A DNA stretch of 64,000 nt from Acidipila sp. (GTDB taxonomy: Bacteria > Acidobacteriota > Terriglobia > Acidiferrales > UBA7541): assembly GCA_010365215.1 (NCBI GenBank), contig JAAFGT010000019.1, forward strand, positions 1-64,000. Reading direction: 5' to 3'. Positions 39,638-46,343 of this stretch are shown piece after piece (the first letter of the stretch is position 1; each line of letters begins with the position of its first letter). Both the position numbers and the translations under genes were made by a program. The notes under the pieces are model-generated. The model was not told where the DNA came from. It did no database searches and worked only from the letters and a program-made list of their open reading frames with translations.

Positions 39638-42376
39638 ATGCGCCCAGTGGCGGACTCTTCCTCTCGCATCGGACAAACCGTTTCGCACTACCGCATCGCT
39701 GAGAAACTTGGCGGCGGTGGCATGGGCATTGTCTATAAAGCCGAAGACACGCGGCTGCACCGCTTCGTGGCGCTGAAATTTCTGCCCGACAATGTAGCCA
39801 AAGACGCACAGGCGCTAGCGCGTTTCGAGCGGGAGGCGCAAGCGGCGTCAGCTTTGAACCATCCCAACATCTGCACCATTTACGACATTGGTCAGGAAGA
39901 GGGCCAGGCTTTCATCGCCATGGAACTTCTGGAAGGCGCCACGCTGAAATATCGCATTGCCGGTCGGCCTCTGGACGTTGAAACGCTGCTGGCGCTCGGC
40001 ATTGAAATCGCCGAAGCCCTCGACGCTGCTCACGTCAAAGGCATCATTCACCGCGACATCAAGCCTGCCAATATTTTTGTTACCGAGCGAGGCCACGCCA
40101 AGGTTCTCGATTTCGGGCTGGCCAAGGTTACTGCATCAAGAGTCGGGGCGCGCAACGCGGATACTCTGGCCACTTTTGGAGTGGACTCCGAACAGCTCAC
40201 CAGTCCGGGCAGCACCCTGGGTACCGTCGCGTACATGTCCCCCGAACAGGTTCGCGGGAAGGAGCTCGACGCACGTAGCGATCTCTTTTCCTTTGGCGTG
40301 GTCCTCTACGAAATGGCCACCGGCGCGCTTCCGTTTCGCGGCGAAACTTCCGCGGTGATTACCGACGCCATTATGAATCGCGCCTTCGCCAGCCCGCTGC
40401 GACTCAATCCCGATCTGCCCGCCAAATTCGAAGACATCATCAACAAGTCTCTCGAAAAGGATTGCGACCTTCGCTATCAATCCGCTTCGGACATTCGCGC
40501 GGACTTGAAGCGCTTGCGGCGCGATTCGGACTCCGGCCGAATCTCCACGCCCCGAACCGGTGTCGTTTCACAGCCCGCGCCGGAACCGTCCGGCTCGTCG
40601 CGCACATCCATCAGTGGGAATATTGCTGCGCCCACGGCCGAGCAGTTGCCGCCCGGCTTTGCGCGAAATAAATACCTTCTTCCGGTTGCCGCAATCGCCG
40701 CAGTTGCGATCATCGTTGCCGTGGTTTTTGCCGCTTATCATTTTGGAGCCGGTTCCAGGGCGCCCGGCGAGTCGGCAAAGATCGTCCAAATCAGCCATTG
40801 GGACAAACCAATGGATCACGCCAGGTTATCTCCCGACGGCCACACGGTGGCATTCACTTCGCCCATCGGGGGCATCTCGCAAGTTTTCATTATGCTCACC
40901 TCGGGGGGCGAGCCGCTGCAGTTAACCAGTGATGAAGCCGACAAAGTTGTTTCCAGCTTCTCCCCTGACGGGACCGAGGTTTACTACCTCAGAGTCTTCG
41001 GGCGGGACGAGAGCTGGGTGGTACCCACACTCGGCGGAAGCCCCCACCGCGTCGTAAGTGGTCACGCTTTGGCGCCTTCGCCCGACGGCGCATTCCTCTA
41101 TTACACCAAGATAGGAACGCGCGCAGTTTTTCGCGCCAATCGCGCGGGCCTGGGCGAGGAGCAGTTGTTTAATTTTGACGCTGCTAACTTTCCGATTGTT
41201 CGCATTCTTCCATTTCCCGATGGAACCCGCCTGCTTGTCTTCACTGCCGATTCTATTTCCTTCATTGAAACCTTCCACGCCTACGTTCTGGACCTCTCGC
41301 AGCGATCCTCTCTCGATCTGGGCGAGATTTCCGGAGTTGTGGGCGCCATAGCGTGGGCAGAAGCGGGAAAGTCAATTTTGTTCAGCCGCACCGTCAACGG
41401 ATTGACCAATATCTGGAAATTTAATTTGAAAGACAAGACCTCGACGCAGGCCACATTTGGAACCGGCCCGGATGAATCGCCCATGCCTGACCCTGCGGGA
41501 AAAGGGCTTTATCTGGTAAGCGGCAAATCTTCCGGTTTCCTGACGGCATACAACATCGCTAGCAAGTCCTCGATTGATATCGCCTCGGAAAACGCCACGC
41601 AGCCGGCAATTTCGCATGACGGCAAACGCTTGATGTACATCACCATTCCGGCAAAGGACCGCATGGAACTCTGGGTCGCCGATATCGACGGCAGCAACAA
41701 ACTAAGACTTTCCACGGCTACTTCGTTGGCCACAGCGAGCTGGGCGCAAGATAATACCCGCCTCACTTTTATCGTGGAAGAAAAGGGCCAGCCCGGTAAA
41801 GCTTACATTGTCAGCGCCGACGGCAGCGGTCTTCACCCGCTTACCTGGAATGGCGGGACGATTCAAAGTGTCCTGTGGAGCGGCGACCAGAAATCCATTT
41901 ACGTCAACAGCTTCGACAAAGGCATTCCTAACGGCACCATCTGGCAAGAAAGCGCCGAGGGCTCGTCGCCGGAGAAACTGATCGATGGTTGCGGTTTCGC
42001 CTGGGACGTAGCGCCCGGTGGGCAATATCTCCTCAGCCTGATTCCGGGCGGAGATAAAGCGGGGATTTACGGGATTTCCATCGCAGAAAAAACGTGCACG
42101 TCCCTGGTGCCGGGCGTGGTGACCTTCAGTATCTTGTTTGCGCCCGACGGCAAATCGATCTTGTACGCCATTCCCGCGCGCCGTGACGTCACGATTTACC
42201 GGCAGAACTGGCAAGCAGGAAAACTGCTCGGCCAGGCACAGGTTGCCGTGAAGCTTCCGTTTGCGTTTCCCCTGGTCAGCGGCGGGAACGCCTACGACAT
42301 TTCGCGCGATCTTTCCACTGTCGTTTATGCACGCCCCGGCGGCCACGCCGACCTCTATCTATTAAGCCAAAAATGA
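39638..42376 (+). CDS. Ser/Thr protein kinase with external PD40 propeller
   Basis: The 912-residue product has a cytoplasmic Hanks-type kinase domain (about 15-285): the glycine loop LGGGGMGIVYKAED, the catalytic VKGIIHRDIKPANIF, and DFGLAK. One membrane segment lies at about 345-368, and the C-terminal half has WD40-like PD40 repeats (ISHWDKPMDHARLSPDGHTV, SFSPDGTEVYYLR, SHDGKRLMYITIP and others). This kinase-membrane-propeller layout is common in Acidobacteriota and suggests a receptor that senses an external ligand and phosphorylates cytoplasmic targets. The target is unknown. Confidence 0.92.
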   Translation: MRPVADSSSRIGQTVSHYRIAEKLGGGGMGIVYKAEDTRLHRFVALKFLPDNVAKDAQALARFEREAQAASALNHPNICTIYDIGQEEGQAFIAMELLEGATLKYRIAGRPLDVETLLALGIEIAEALDAAHVKGIIHRDIKPANIFVTERGHAKVLDFGLAKVTASRVGARNADTLATFGVDSEQLTSPGSTLGTVAYMSPEQVRGKELDARSDLFSFGVVLYEMATGALPFRGETSAVITDAIMNRAFASPLRLNPDLPAKFEDIINKSLEKDCDLRYQSASDIRADLKRLRRDSDSGRISTPRTGVVSQPAPEPSGSSRTSISGNIAAPTAEQLPPGFARNKYLLPVAAIAAVAIIVAVVFAAYHFGAGSRAPGESAKIVQISHWDKPMDHARLSPDGHTVAFTSPIGGISQVFIMLTSGGEPLQLTSDEADKVVSSFSPDGTEVYYLRVFGRDESWVVPTLGGSPHRVVSGHALAPSPDGAFLYYTKIGTRAVFRANRAGLGEEQLFNFDAANFPIVRILPFPDGTRLLVFTADSISFIETFHAYVLDLSQRSSLDLGEISGVVGAIAWAEAGKSILFSRTVNGLTNIWKFNLKDKTSTQATFGTGPDESPMPDPAGKGLYLVSGKSSGFLTAYNIASKSSIDIASENATQPAISHDGKRLMYITIPAKDRMELWVADIDGSNKLRLSTATSLATASWAQDNTRLTFIVEEKGQPGKAYIVSADGSGLHPLTWNGGTIQSVLWSGDQKSIYVNSFDKGIPNGTIWQESAEGSSPEKLIDGCGFAWDVAPGGQYLLSLIPGGDKAGIYGISIAEKTCTSLVPGVVTFSILFAPDGKSILYAIPARRDVTIYRQNWQAGKLLGQAQVAVKLPFAFPLVSGGNAYDISRDLSTVVYARPGGHADLYLLSQK

Positions 42377-42475: not shown

Positions 42476-43063
42476 TTACTTTCCGGATTCCGTGCGCAAA
42501 TTATTGTTCACGGAAAACACCCCCGAAACTCCGTTCGCGCGTATGTTGGCAACGTTCTTTTCCCCTTCCGTGCTGACCACGCCTTCCAGCGTCAAATGCC
42601 CGTTCTTCACCACGATGTGAATGGGCTGCTGGATTCCCACGGAATAGCGCTGCAACATCGGATCGCCGTAAATTGCGCGATACGCCGCCCAGCGAATGCG
42701 ATCGTCATTGGGCGATGGAGGAAGCACCTCAATCTGATTGACGACGGTGGTTACGCCTTCAATCCGTTTCACCGCGCCCTCCGCATCCGATTTCAGCGAA
42801 GGACGTGTTACTTCACCGAGCAGCGTCACGTTATCCCCATCCACCTTGAAGGCCAGATTATCGAACACCGAAAAATACGGCAGCATCACCAGTTCGTGCC
42901 GCACTTCCCGTTCCAGCCGCTGCTGGATTCTGTCGGAATCCTTCGGCTGGCGTTGCTCCTGGGGAGTCGTGGAGGCTCGGACGGCGGGGGTCGTCACAGC
43001 GATCGTTGCCGCCAGGGCCAGAGAAGAAAATAGAGCCACACCTCTTTTCGAGCGAATCGTCAT
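42476..43063 (-). CDS. Periplasmic BON-domain protein
   Basis: The 195-residue product has a signal peptide (LFSSLALAATIAVTTPAVRA) and two BON domains: about 55-115 (VDGDNVTLLGEVTRPSLKSD, with VKRIEGVTTVVNQIEVLP) and about 125-190 (IHIVVKNGHLTLEGVVSTEG). BON domains bind membranes or lipids and occur in OsmY-like stress proteins. It ends before its own terminator. Envelope protection is an inference from the family. Confidence 0.88.
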   Translation of the reverse strand: MTIRSKRGVALFSSLALAATIAVTTPAVRASTTPQEQRQPKDSDRIQQRLEREVRHELVMLPYFSVFDNLAFKVDGDNVTLLGEVTRPSLKSDAEGAVKRIEGVTTVVNQIEVLPPSPNDDRIRWAAYRAIYGDPMLQRYSVGIQQPIHIVVKNGHLTLEGVVSTEGEKNVANIRANGVSGVFSVNNNLRTESGK

Positions 43064-43280: not shown

Positions 43281-44057
43281 ATGCAGCCGGCTATGCAAGA
43301 CGACACCGACATTGGCGGCCGCTCTCCGCGATTTCCCGTGACGCGCTGGTCCGTCCTGCTCGCGGCGCGCAGCGAAGATCCCGCCCAGCGCACGCGCGCG
43401 TTCGAAACCATCGTCTCCGGCTACTGGAAGCCGGTCTACAAATACATTCGCATTCGCTGGAACAAATCCAACGAAGACGCCAAAGATCTGACCCAGGAAT
43501 TTTTCGCGCGCGTAATCGAAAAAGATTTTCTCGCGAACTACGATCCCGCGGCGGCGCGGCTGCGCACCTTCCTGCGCGTCTGCGTCGACAGGTTCCTCTC
43601 CAACCAGGAAAAATCCGCGCGGCGCCTGAAACGGGGCGGCGACGCGGTGATGCTGCCACTCGAGTTCGAAAGCGCGGAAGCCGAGCTGGCCTGCGGCGCC
43701 CACGCCGCCACCCTTTCCACTCCCGCCGCCATGGAGGATTATTTTGAGAAGGAATGGCTCCGCCATCTCTTCTCGCTTTCTCTCGATGCTCTTCGTCTGC
43801 AGTTAACCGCGGACGGCAAGCTGATTTATTTCCGTCTGTTCGAGCGCTACGACCTGGAAGAGGAAGACGCCGCGCGTCCCACCTACGCGCAACTCGCCCG
43901 CGAATTCGGTGTCACCGCCACCGCGGTCACAAATTATCTGGCCTGCGCCCGTCGCGAATTTCGCCGCACAGTTCTCGAGAAATTGCGCGACATGAGCGCC
44001 ACCGAAAATGAATTTCGCCGCGAAGCTCGCGCCGTCCTGGGAATCGACCCGCTATGA
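43281..44057 (+). CDS. ECF-like sigma-70 factor coupled to a kinase
   Basis: The 258-residue product has an ECF-type region 2 (RWSVLLAARSED, then DAKDLTQEFFARVIEKDFL, in which the DLTQEFF core binds RNA polymerase) and a region 4 helix-turn-helix (TYAQLAREFGVTATAVTNYL, then ACARREFRRTVLEKL). It is longer than most ECF factors because of an insert between the regions. There is no anti-sigma gene; instead the stop overlaps the start of a Ser/Thr kinase gene (ATGA at 44054-44057), so control by phosphorylation is likely. Related sigma/kinase pairs are known in Planctomycetes and Acidobacteriota. Confidence 0.85.
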   Translation: MQPAMQDDTDIGGRSPRFPVTRWSVLLAARSEDPAQRTRAFETIVSGYWKPVYKYIRIRWNKSNEDAKDLTQEFFARVIEKDFLANYDPAAARLRTFLRVCVDRFLSNQEKSARRLKRGGDAVMLPLEFESAEAELACGAHAATLSTPAAMEDYFEKEWLRHLFSLSLDALRLQLTADGKLIYFRLFERYDLEEEDAARPTYAQLAREFGVTATAVTNYLACARREFRRTVLEKLRDMSATENEFRREARAVLGIDPL

Positions 44058-45154
44058 AGTGGCTCTCCGATCACGCGCTTGAGCGCCTGCGCGAAGCGGC
44101 CGAGTCACCGGATCTCTCCGGCACGCGCTACCGCCTGCTCGAGCGCCTCGGCCGCGGCGGCATGGGCACCGTCTATCTCGCGGAAGACTCCGCGCTCGGC
44201 CGCCGCCTGGCGCTAAAGGTTCTGCATGAGCCGGACGCGCCGCCCGATCTCGCCGCGCGGCTGGTCCACGAAGCACGCATTCTCGCGCGGCTCGAGCATC
44301 CCGGCATCGTGCCGGTGCACGACGTGGGAACGCTCGCCGACGGCCGCGTGTTTTACACCATGAAGTACGTGCACGGCGCGCGGCTCGACGAGCATGTTCA
44401 CTCCGTCCCAGCGACCTCCGATCGTTTGCGCCTGTTCCAGAGAATATGCGAGGCAGTGGCCTTCGCTCATGCGCGCGGCGTACTGCACCGCGACCTGAAA
44501 CCCGAAAATGTGATGGTCGGGCCGTTCGGCGAAGTCCTGGTAATGGACTGGGGCGTAGCCAAAATACTTCGCGCCCCTGCAACCCGCGAAGCAGCGGCAC
44601 AGACAGTCCACGCCACTGGCGTGCCCGCGCTTGACGCCGAAGAGATTCCCGCAGCCAGCACCGGACTGCCCGGAAGTTTCAGCCTGCTCCCTGCGGATAC
44701 CGCACACGGAACCGTGCTCGGAACTCCCGGCTATATGGCGCCCGAGCAAGCTCTCGGCGACACACAAAACCTTGACCAGCGCGCCGACATCTTCGCTCTG
44801 GGAGCGATTTTATTATTTCTGCTCACTGGCAGTAGACCAAAATCTGGCGCTGCAGCGAATAGCAGCGCATTCAGCGTCTCGGGCGTCTCGGGCGGTCCGG
44901 GCACTCGCGTCCCGCGCGCTCTTCAGGCCATCTGCTCCAAAGCCATGGCGCACAGTCCTTCCGGGCGGTACTCTTCGGCACAAGAGCTGGCCGCCGATGT
45001 TGCTCGCTATCTCGACGGCCTGCCCGTTGCCGCGTATCCGGAAAACCTGGTGGGTCGCGCCGCACGGCTTGTTTCGCGGCACCGCGTGGCCGTCCTCCTG
45101 GTGGCGGCCTATCTGCTCACGCGCGTGCTTCTGCTTCTCGTAATGGGCCGTTAG
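44054..45154 (+). CDS. Ser/Thr protein kinase translationally coupled to the sigma factor
   Basis: The 366-residue product has a Hanks-type kinase domain (YRLLERLGRGGMGTVYLAED, LALKVLHE, VLHRDLKPENVMV). The usual DFG is MDWGVAKIL here, a variant seen in some bacterial kinases that keeps the metal-binding aspartate. An alanine- and serine-rich stretch lies between the DWG and the APE motif (GYMAPEQALG). A single membrane segment at the extreme C-terminus (about 343-362) anchors the kinase with its domain inside the cell and no external sensor. The start overlaps the sigma factor stop by four bases. Confidence 0.9.
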   Translation: MKWLSDHALERLREAAESPDLSGTRYRLLERLGRGGMGTVYLAEDSALGRRLALKVLHEPDAPPDLAARLVHEARILARLEHPGIVPVHDVGTLADGRVFYTMKYVHGARLDEHVHSVPATSDRLRLFQRICEAVAFAHARGVLHRDLKPENVMVGPFGEVLVMDWGVAKILRAPATREAAAQTVHATGVPALDAEEIPAASTGLPGSFSLLPADTAHGTVLGTPGYMAPEQALGDTQNLDQRADIFALGAILLFLLTGSRPKSGAAANSSAFSVSGVSGGPGTRVPRALQAICSKAMAHSPSGRYSSAQELAADVARYLDGLPVAAYPENLVGRAARLVSRHRVAVLLVAAYLLTRVLLLLVMGR

Positions 45155-45343
45155 CCTGTAACGGCGCATGCCGCTGCGTCAGGATGCACAAAACTTTAGC
45201 CGTGATACTTTTCATCTTTATTCCGGCCTCGTTAAAGGATTTGGAAAAAGCGTGTAATAGAAGATCAAGCGGGGAACACAGCGCCCGCATCGTCACGAAG
45301 TGAACGCTAAGCAAATGTCTTAAGGCGCAAGTTAAGGAGCGAA

Positions 45344-45700
45344 ATGAATAAAATCTTGCTGGGACTCATTCTGGGAGGAATCCTCGGCGTATTCGACGGG
45401 CTGACCGCCTGGTTCACGCCCGACGCCCGGGCGGGAATCGTAGGAATCGTGATTGGCTCAACGATCAAGGGAATTATTGCCGGTATCGTAATCGGTTTCT
45501 TCAGCCGGAAATTCCATTCCCTGCCGCTGGGCATCGCGTTTGGCCTGGCCGTCGGCCTGCTGCTTGCGTTTCCCATCGCCTACATGCAGCACAAATATTA
45601 TTTTGAGATTATGCTTCCCGGCGGCATGGTCGGCCTGATTGTGGGATATGCCACGCAGACTTACGGTGGAAACCCGCAGCTAGCCAACGCACGCTCCTGA
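45344..45700 (+). CDS. Small glycine-rich membrane protein
   Basis: The 118-residue product is almost entirely hydrophobic, with four segments rich in small residues: LLGLILGGILGVFDG, GIVGIVIGSTIKGIIAGIVI, LGIAFGLAVGLLLAFPIAY and MLPGGMVGLIVGYA. AAGGAG precedes the ATG. Related small membrane proteins of unknown function are common. It is followed 28 bases later by the DinB-fold gene on the same strand. Confidence 0.75.
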   Translation: MNKILLGLILGGILGVFDGLTAWFTPDARAGIVGIVIGSTIKGIIAGIVIGFFSRKFHSLPLGIAFGLAVGLLLAFPIAYMQHKYYFEIMLPGGMVGLIVGYATQTYGGNPQLANARS

Positions 45701-45728: not shown

Positions 45729-46343
45729 ATGAATTGCCGCTTTGCAGTTATTACGATCTGTAGCGGGATATTCGCCCTGGCAGCCTGTGTAGTCGCTGCG
45801 CGCGCGCAGGGCAGCGCGCCTGCCGCCGTTTCAACTGCGCCCAAATCCGGTTTCCGCGCCGAGTTTTTGACCGAACTGACTGTGGTGCAGGGCCGGCTGC
45901 TTCGTCTAGCGGAAGCCATGCCTGCGGAAAAATATACCTGGCGGCCGGGCGAGGGTGTTCGGTCGGTGAGCGAAGTGTTTCTGCACGTGGCCGCGGCGAA
46001 TTACAATTTGCCCGGCGAATGGGGCGCCACGCTGCCCGCCGGCGTGGTCACGCGCGGCTTGGAGAAGTCCACCACGGAAAAGTCCGCGGTCATAAAAATC
46101 ATGCAGGATTCATTCGGCTATCTGCGGTCCACGATCGCTTCCATGTCCGACGCGGATGCGGAAAAAAAGGTGGCCTGGTTTGGTGGTGAAAACACCTACC
46201 GCGGCCTGCTGCTATTCACCATTCGCCATATGGCCGAGCATTTGGGCCAATCGATTGCTTACGCGCGGATGAACGGAGTTGTCCCACCCTGGACAACCGA
46301 TTTTGAGAAGGAAACGAAGAAGGACCCGCCCAAAAAGCCGTGA
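45729..46343 (+). CDS. Exported DinB-fold protein
   Basis: The 204-residue product has a signal peptide (cut near ARAQGSA) and a four-helix DinB domain with likely metal histidines in VSEVFLHVAAANYN and IRHMAEHLGQSIAYARMNG. DinB-fold proteins include thiol-dependent S-transferases; the exported form is common in Acidobacteriota and has no proven reaction. TAGGAGG precedes the start. Confidence 0.85.
   Translation: MNCRFAVITICSGIFALAACVVAARAQGSAPAAVSTAPKSGFRAEFLTELTVVQGRLLRLAEAMPAEKYTWRPGEGVRSVSEVFLHVAAANYNLPGEWGATLPAGVVTRGLEKSTTEKSAVIKIMQDSFGYLRSTIASMSDADAEKKVAWFGGENTYRGLLLFTIRHMAEHLGQSIAYARMNGVVPPWTTDFEKETKKDPPKKP

Follow-up and report, generated by a model that had tools for sequence, protein, structure and literature searches.

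An ECF-like sigma factor gene and an overlapping Ser/Thr kinase gene of Acidipila sp. are followed by a third gene, which encodes a small membrane protein and is preceded by a two-box promoter-like motif. These three genes probably constitute a self-contained signalling unit in which the kinase controls the sigma factor and the sigma factor drives the third gene. Judging from its distribution among related genomes, the motif is very likely the promoter recognized by this sigma factor. The third gene, the motif and the probable regulon were absent from the preliminary description of this DNA, and they provide the best lead on the output of the pathway and possibly on its membrane input. The features lie in the 64,000-nt stretch of contig JAAFGT010000019.1 that was analysed (the window) and are listed in Table 1.

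Table 1. Features of the sigma factor–kinase–third gene locus in the window.
Feature	Coordinates	Strand	Details
ECF-like sigma factor gene	43281..44057	+	258 aa
Sigma region 2.2 motif, D66-A-K-D69-L-T71-Q72	43476..43496	+	fits DxxDxxQE (motif as defined in an excerpt of PMC13147305)
ATGA start/stop overlap, sigma factor/kinase	44054..44057	+	
Ser/Thr kinase gene	44054..45154	+	366 aa, catalytic residues intact
DWG codons, kinase residues 165-167	44546..44554	+	
Predicted kinase C-terminal membrane helix, residues 344-365	45083..45148	+	conserved Tyr353 and Arg357
Two-box promoter-like motif before third gene	45232..45262	+	33.1 bits; next-best window site 9.0
Third gene, four-helix membrane protein	45344..45700	+	118 aa, no named family
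DinB-superfamily gene	45729..46343	+	28 nt past third gene

The window sigma factor scored 40.0 bits with TIGR02937 (cut-off 42.9; E 3e-10; residues 40-228) and 20.6 bits with Pfam Sigma70_r2 (cut-off 24), with region 2 alone being matched by the latter. As the protein is divergent and falls just below the cut-offs of these general models, the label 'ECF-like' that it had been given is a fair one. A search of PDB sequences returned no match at E<=0.01. The sigma factor is the sole member of its kind in its own 4.1-Mb genome (E<=1e-3), and no anti-sigma gene is present within the pair, as had been stated. The sigma factor profile matched 46, 25 and 17 times in three planctomycete genomes (G494, G495 and G493, respectively), none of which had the third gene; from this expansion we conclude that the window sigma factor belongs to a large kind, of which it is one branch. 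Upstream of the sigma factor gene in several loci of one genus (L043-L056) there is a conserved TTGTCAGC, followed about 17 nt on by CATAGACT. Read by eye, this element is like a housekeeping promoter and would serve the sigma factor–kinase pair.

The pairing on which the preliminary description was built proved to be conserved, so that loss of the pair in relatives, named there as a refuting outcome, was not observed. Among the 89 genomes of the family set, 27 contained a sigma factor match, yielding 25 strong loci including the window. Four of these were unreadable past the sigma factor gene, three because of contig ends (L030, L031 and L033) and one because of a stop (L032). The kinase gene was adjacent to the sigma factor gene in all 21 readable loci (window included), and the junction was ATGA in 20 of them, the remaining one having a 29-nt gap. 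Conservation to this extent indicates that the overlap is not due to chance. The preliminary description had also proposed translational coupling; the overlap behind that proposal stands, and the pair is probably co-translated. Scanning named genomes yielded 80 loci, with the relatives being mostly from Acidobacteriota. Once these were merged with the family loci and duplicates were removed, 89 loci remained, 84 of which had an intact sigma factor gene and at least 250 nt of downstream sequence. A same-strand kinase gene was found within 300 nt of the sigma factor gene in 74 of the 84, with a 4-nt overlap in 58 of the 74 (45 ATGA and 13 GTGA or TTGA). Among the ten loci without a near kinase, several had an upstream gene for a large DFG kinase, or a kinase gene on the opposite strand. 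The pair occurs in Acidobacteriota, Planctomycetota, KSB1/Calditrichia and Myxococcus, and its culturable carriers include Myxococcus dinghuensis and Sulfidibacter corallicola. At three Phycisphaerae loci (L129, L131 and L133) the sigma factor gene is preceded by the gene for a large kinase (about 1,200 residues, DFG) in place of the mini-kinase found in the window. Other neighbours of the window pair were rejected as conserved partners. The gene for a BON-domain exported protein (42476-43063), divergent from the sigma factor gene, was found at none of 88 loci, and a PNPOx gene at 13 of them, which belong to a single genus.

The window kinase matched Pkinase with 123 bits, and alignment showed that Lys55, Glu73, Asp147 and Asn152 are retained. 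It has the catalytic Lys, HRD Asp, Asn and DxG Asp of Hanks-type Ser/Thr kinases, and a disordered insert occupies residues 175-221 of the activation segment, after DWG. The substitution of DWG for DFG, reported previously for the window kinase, is constant in its relatives: all 80 aligned kinases that cover the site contain DWG, the 81st being frameshifted there. The genome that contains the window has 31 Pkinase matches; among the eight loci inspected, the seven other kinases with a readable motif were all DFG. A crude motif search that found no DxG in many of the kinases had raised a pseudokinase reading, which the alignment traced to an artefact of the search pattern; no pseudokinase was found among the 81 aligned kinases, and those covering the catalytic sites were intact. 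The last helix is predicted to end at residue 365 of 366, one residue short of the C-terminus, from which it follows that this membrane-tailed kinase has no external domain, in agreement with the preliminary description. Within this helix Tyr353 was conserved in 78, and Arg or Lys at position 357 in 80, of the 81 kinases. A parallel to DWG comes from CK2 alpha, in which Trp likewise replaces the Phe of DFG and is reported, in the excerpted text of PMC9608649, to disfavour the inactive DFG-out state. CK2 alpha is otherwise unrelated, being a soluble eukaryotic enzyme with the motif alone in common. By this analogy, the window kinase may be regulated by a partner or by place rather than by a DFG switch. 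A second kinase gene is situated directly upstream (39638-42376; 912 aa, DFG, PD40 repeats), and no link between it and the sigma factor–kinase unit was seen.

Two broken loci pointed to the third gene. In L132 and L142, from two Acidobacteriota genomes, the sigma factor ends at about residue 171-183 and is fused into the end of a gene related to the third ORF of the window; both are apparent deletions that took out the kinase gene. Relatives of the third gene were then recorded at 65 of the 88 other loci. A profile search located it after the kinase gene at 63 of the 67 mini-kinase loci with room for it, compared to one of the 13 loci that had no kinase or one of another type (p 4e-10, a value that overstates certainty because related genomes were counted as independent). 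The sole exception among these 13, L038, turned out to be a frameshifted mini-kinase. Four mini-kinase loci had no adjacent third gene, and the genome of one of them (L091) had no third gene anywhere. The association extended to whole genomes. Among 396 genomes of the phylum, in which the best seven sigma factor candidates per genome were scored, the third gene was present in 21, a close sigma factor in 20 and both in 19 (p ~3e-29, overstated for the same reason); the close set was delimited post hoc and consists of 19 genomes at >=251 bits and G389, which has a half-length fragment at 144 bits. Among the 89 family genomes, the third gene was present in 25, the sigma factor in 25 and both in 21. 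The third gene and the sigma factor–kinase pair reside on separate contigs in G159, G154 and G330. The mini-kinase and third genes adjoin one another even where the sigma factor gene is elsewhere, as in a KSB1 genome (L095) and in Phycisphaerae (L130, L131 and L133).

The predicted fold of the third protein consists of four long helices (pLDDT 91.7). In the 63 aligned third proteins Asp18, Gly19, Ser39, Lys42, Pro92 and several glycines are invariant. No family in Pfam, NCBIfam or PHROGs scored above its cut-off. The best match among PDB sequences was to the soluble protein Nova-1 (22 bits, E 0.001), with three more at E ~0.6, and Foldseek returned nothing at E<=0.001. The distance matrices of sigma factor, kinase and third protein agree with one another over 63 loci (r 0.81-0.89), an agreement that shared descent alone would yield. 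Nine loci (L043, L045, L046, L049-L053 and L056) have, a few hundred bases further downstream, another copy of the third gene that has diverged and is not preceded by the promoter motif. The third protein belongs to a widespread, highly conserved and unannotated family, which the unit links to a probable signalling pathway.

The motif upstream of the third gene has the consensus tTAAAGGAATt-N7-aCGTTGAATAGAA, and CGTGTAATAGAA is a box of the predicted third-gene promoter. The spacing of the two boxes is shorter than usual for ECF promoters. Scores above 6 bits were obtained for 85 of 92 third-gene upstream regions, 81 with an identical spacer; as 99% of shuffled regions scored under 12.1 bits, seven of the 85 must be read as lying between 6 and 12.1 bits or as otherwise weak. 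A start-codon filter removed from this count the nine diverged second copies, which have no motif, and L174, which has the motif at 22.2 bits. A matrix built from 20 family regions placed 54 of 82 other regions above the 99% shuffle level; the 28 that failed this out-of-sample test include the nine second copies. Four loci (L118, L127, L202 and L205) have a weak or missing motif despite having the sigma factor. Upstream of the sigma factor gene itself there was no motif in any of the 89 loci (best score 1.9 bits), and for this reason the pair does not appear to be under the control of the two-box promoter.

In the genome that contains the window, the copy before the third gene is the single perfect site. 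A search for a wider regulon there was negative, with 15 further sites at two to three mismatches compared to 18 in the backward control. Additional sites were found in other genomes, upstream of genes for DinB (G009, G012 and G013), DUF6265 (G009, G024 and G011), AHSA1 (G063 and G066) and a glyoxalase-family protein (G374), with one protein of each kind checked in Pfam. These sites scored 20.8-29.4 bits compared to stray matches of up to 24.8. Because some of them are no better than strays, their recurrence upstream of the same genes carries more weight than the scores. The DinB gene of the window probably belongs to the third-gene transcript. DinB had been rejected as a fixed neighbour, being present at one of 88 loci, and the link to it came back via the promoter motif.

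Distribution of the motif also bears on whether it could belong to another regulator, with the sigma factor having unrelated targets and the three genes being merely co-inherited. Two genomes are consistent with such an arrangement. G323 contains the motif, the third gene and a shortened kinase gene in the absence of a sigma factor (E<=1e-8), which looks like a recent loss, and G011, in which a motif-like site precedes the DUF6265 gene, lacks both the sigma factor and the third gene. Inheritance of the whole locus would also account for some of the co-occurrence. However, the motif was present upstream of 84 of 90 third genes in genomes with the sigma factor compared to one of seven in genomes without it, a small sample that includes four diverged genes (94-139 bits) and two genes of a single genome. 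The six that lacked the motif include two close third genes in G069. Moreover, co-occurrence persists for unlinked genes, the motif is retained where the third gene is unlinked from the sigma factor gene, and extra sites occur in genomes that have the sigma factor. We therefore regard another regulator as unlikely and consider this sigma factor the probable reader of the motif.

By analogy with characterized pairs, the kinase likely acts on the sigma factor and, with somewhat less assurance, would do so by phosphorylating it, as proposed in the preliminary description. Phosphorylation of the sigma factor is known for EcfP/PknT (excerpts of PMC8999054) and EcfK/PknS (excerpts of PMC13147305). 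In the mechanism known for EcfP, which belongs to ECF43 (PMC8999054, in part), the kinase phosphorylates a Thr of region 2.2 in an intrinsically inactive sigma factor and thereby restores the negative charge needed for RNA polymerase binding. The same gene pairing is found here, and T71, inside the motif, is Thr in 85 of 87 partnered sigma factors. However, the window protein spells DAKDLTQE in region 2.2, and the acidic contact is intact throughout: D69 and Q72 are each kept in 87 of 87 partnered sigma factors, and position 66 is acidic (D or E) in 71 of them. All 24 related sigma factors that lack a kinase of this type likewise have T71, and the other two partnered ones have V or I there. 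As Asp69 is invariant, we consider it improbable that the kinase acts through an EcfP-type charge at region 2.2. Phosphorylation elsewhere, in the linker or in the region-4 helix near T217, could activate or silence the sigma factor, and we give this possibility a little less than even weight. PknS targets functionally important linker sites of EcfK (PMC13147305, in part). Of the 87 partnered sigma factors, 54 have S or T and 13 have D at linker position 150; position 217 is Thr in 77 of them compared to 7 of the 24 others. Against these sites, the window sigma factor has Ala at position 150, nine of the 87 have Asn at position 217, and a phosphosite search across the alignment of 87 partnered and 24 other sigma factors found no residue that is both invariant and specific to the partnered ones. 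It is also conceivable that the kinase retains the sigma factor at the membrane in the manner of an anti-sigma factor and directs catalysis at another target, e.g. itself. Strict co-translation, the membrane tail and the lack of an anti-sigma gene would fit such a role, but the catalytic residues are kept in every kinase that covers them, whereas they should decay in a protein that served as a holder only. We attach little probability to this role and favour phosphorylation of the sigma factor.

Our model is as follows. The kinase would be anchored in the inner membrane by its last helix alone, and its synthesis would be coupled to that of the sigma factor through the conserved overlap. It would control sigma factor activity, most likely through phosphorylation, as in the known kinase-linked ECF groups. 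Active sigma factor would then transcribe the third gene from its dedicated two-box promoter, joined in certain relatives by a handful of small genes (DinB, AHSA1, DUF6265 and glyoxalase), while the pair itself would seemingly be expressed from elsewhere. The third protein would be the main output. Because its gene stays beside that of the membrane-tailed kinase in genomes whose sigma factor gene is elsewhere, the third protein may, speculatively, act back on the kinase within the membrane; we suggest only tentatively that it binds the kinase helix. A fuller version is more doubtful still. In this three-part circuit a constitutively primed DWG kinase would sense the state of the membrane via its Tyr/Arg tail helix, held by the third protein, whose helices contain the invariant Asp18 and Lys42. 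The kinase would set the activity of a sigma factor with the third protein as its main or sole target, thereby closing a feedback loop.

Kinase-linked ECF sigma factors are already known as a kind. Our literature search, which did not extend to the main ECF classification and EcfP papers, found no published description of a sigma factor–kinase–third gene unit with its promoter. Section 3.4 of PMC8999054, as excerpted, describes six kinase-linked ECF groups, five of which keep the acidic motif and have a mechanism that is said to be open. ECF59, ECF61, ECF62, ECF217 and ECF283 resemble the window pair in having a kinase neighbour and a DAED-like motif, a likeness drawn from the excerpted description rather than from group profiles, and four of their five model sigma factors are from planctomycetes (PMC8999054). 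Unlike in the window, no membrane-protein partner or promoter is mentioned for these groups in the excerpt. ECF43, represented by EcfP/PknT of Vibrio parahaemolyticus and EcfK/PknS of Xanthomonas citri, shares with the window an ECF sigma factor gene adjacent to that of its cognate Hanks-type membrane kinase and the lack of an anti-sigma gene. The two differ in that the window-type sigma factor keeps the acidic Asp of region 2.2, its DxxD not being replaced by uncharged residues plus a phosphorylatable Thr. PknS has an external domain (PMC13147305, in part), whereas the window kinase has none and contains DWG. Finally, unlike ECF43, the window unit includes a third membrane protein gene with its own promoter-like motif. 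A promoter and a target gene can thereby be predicted for an acidic-motif, kinase-linked sigma factor, and control by the kinase should be readable with a simple reporter.
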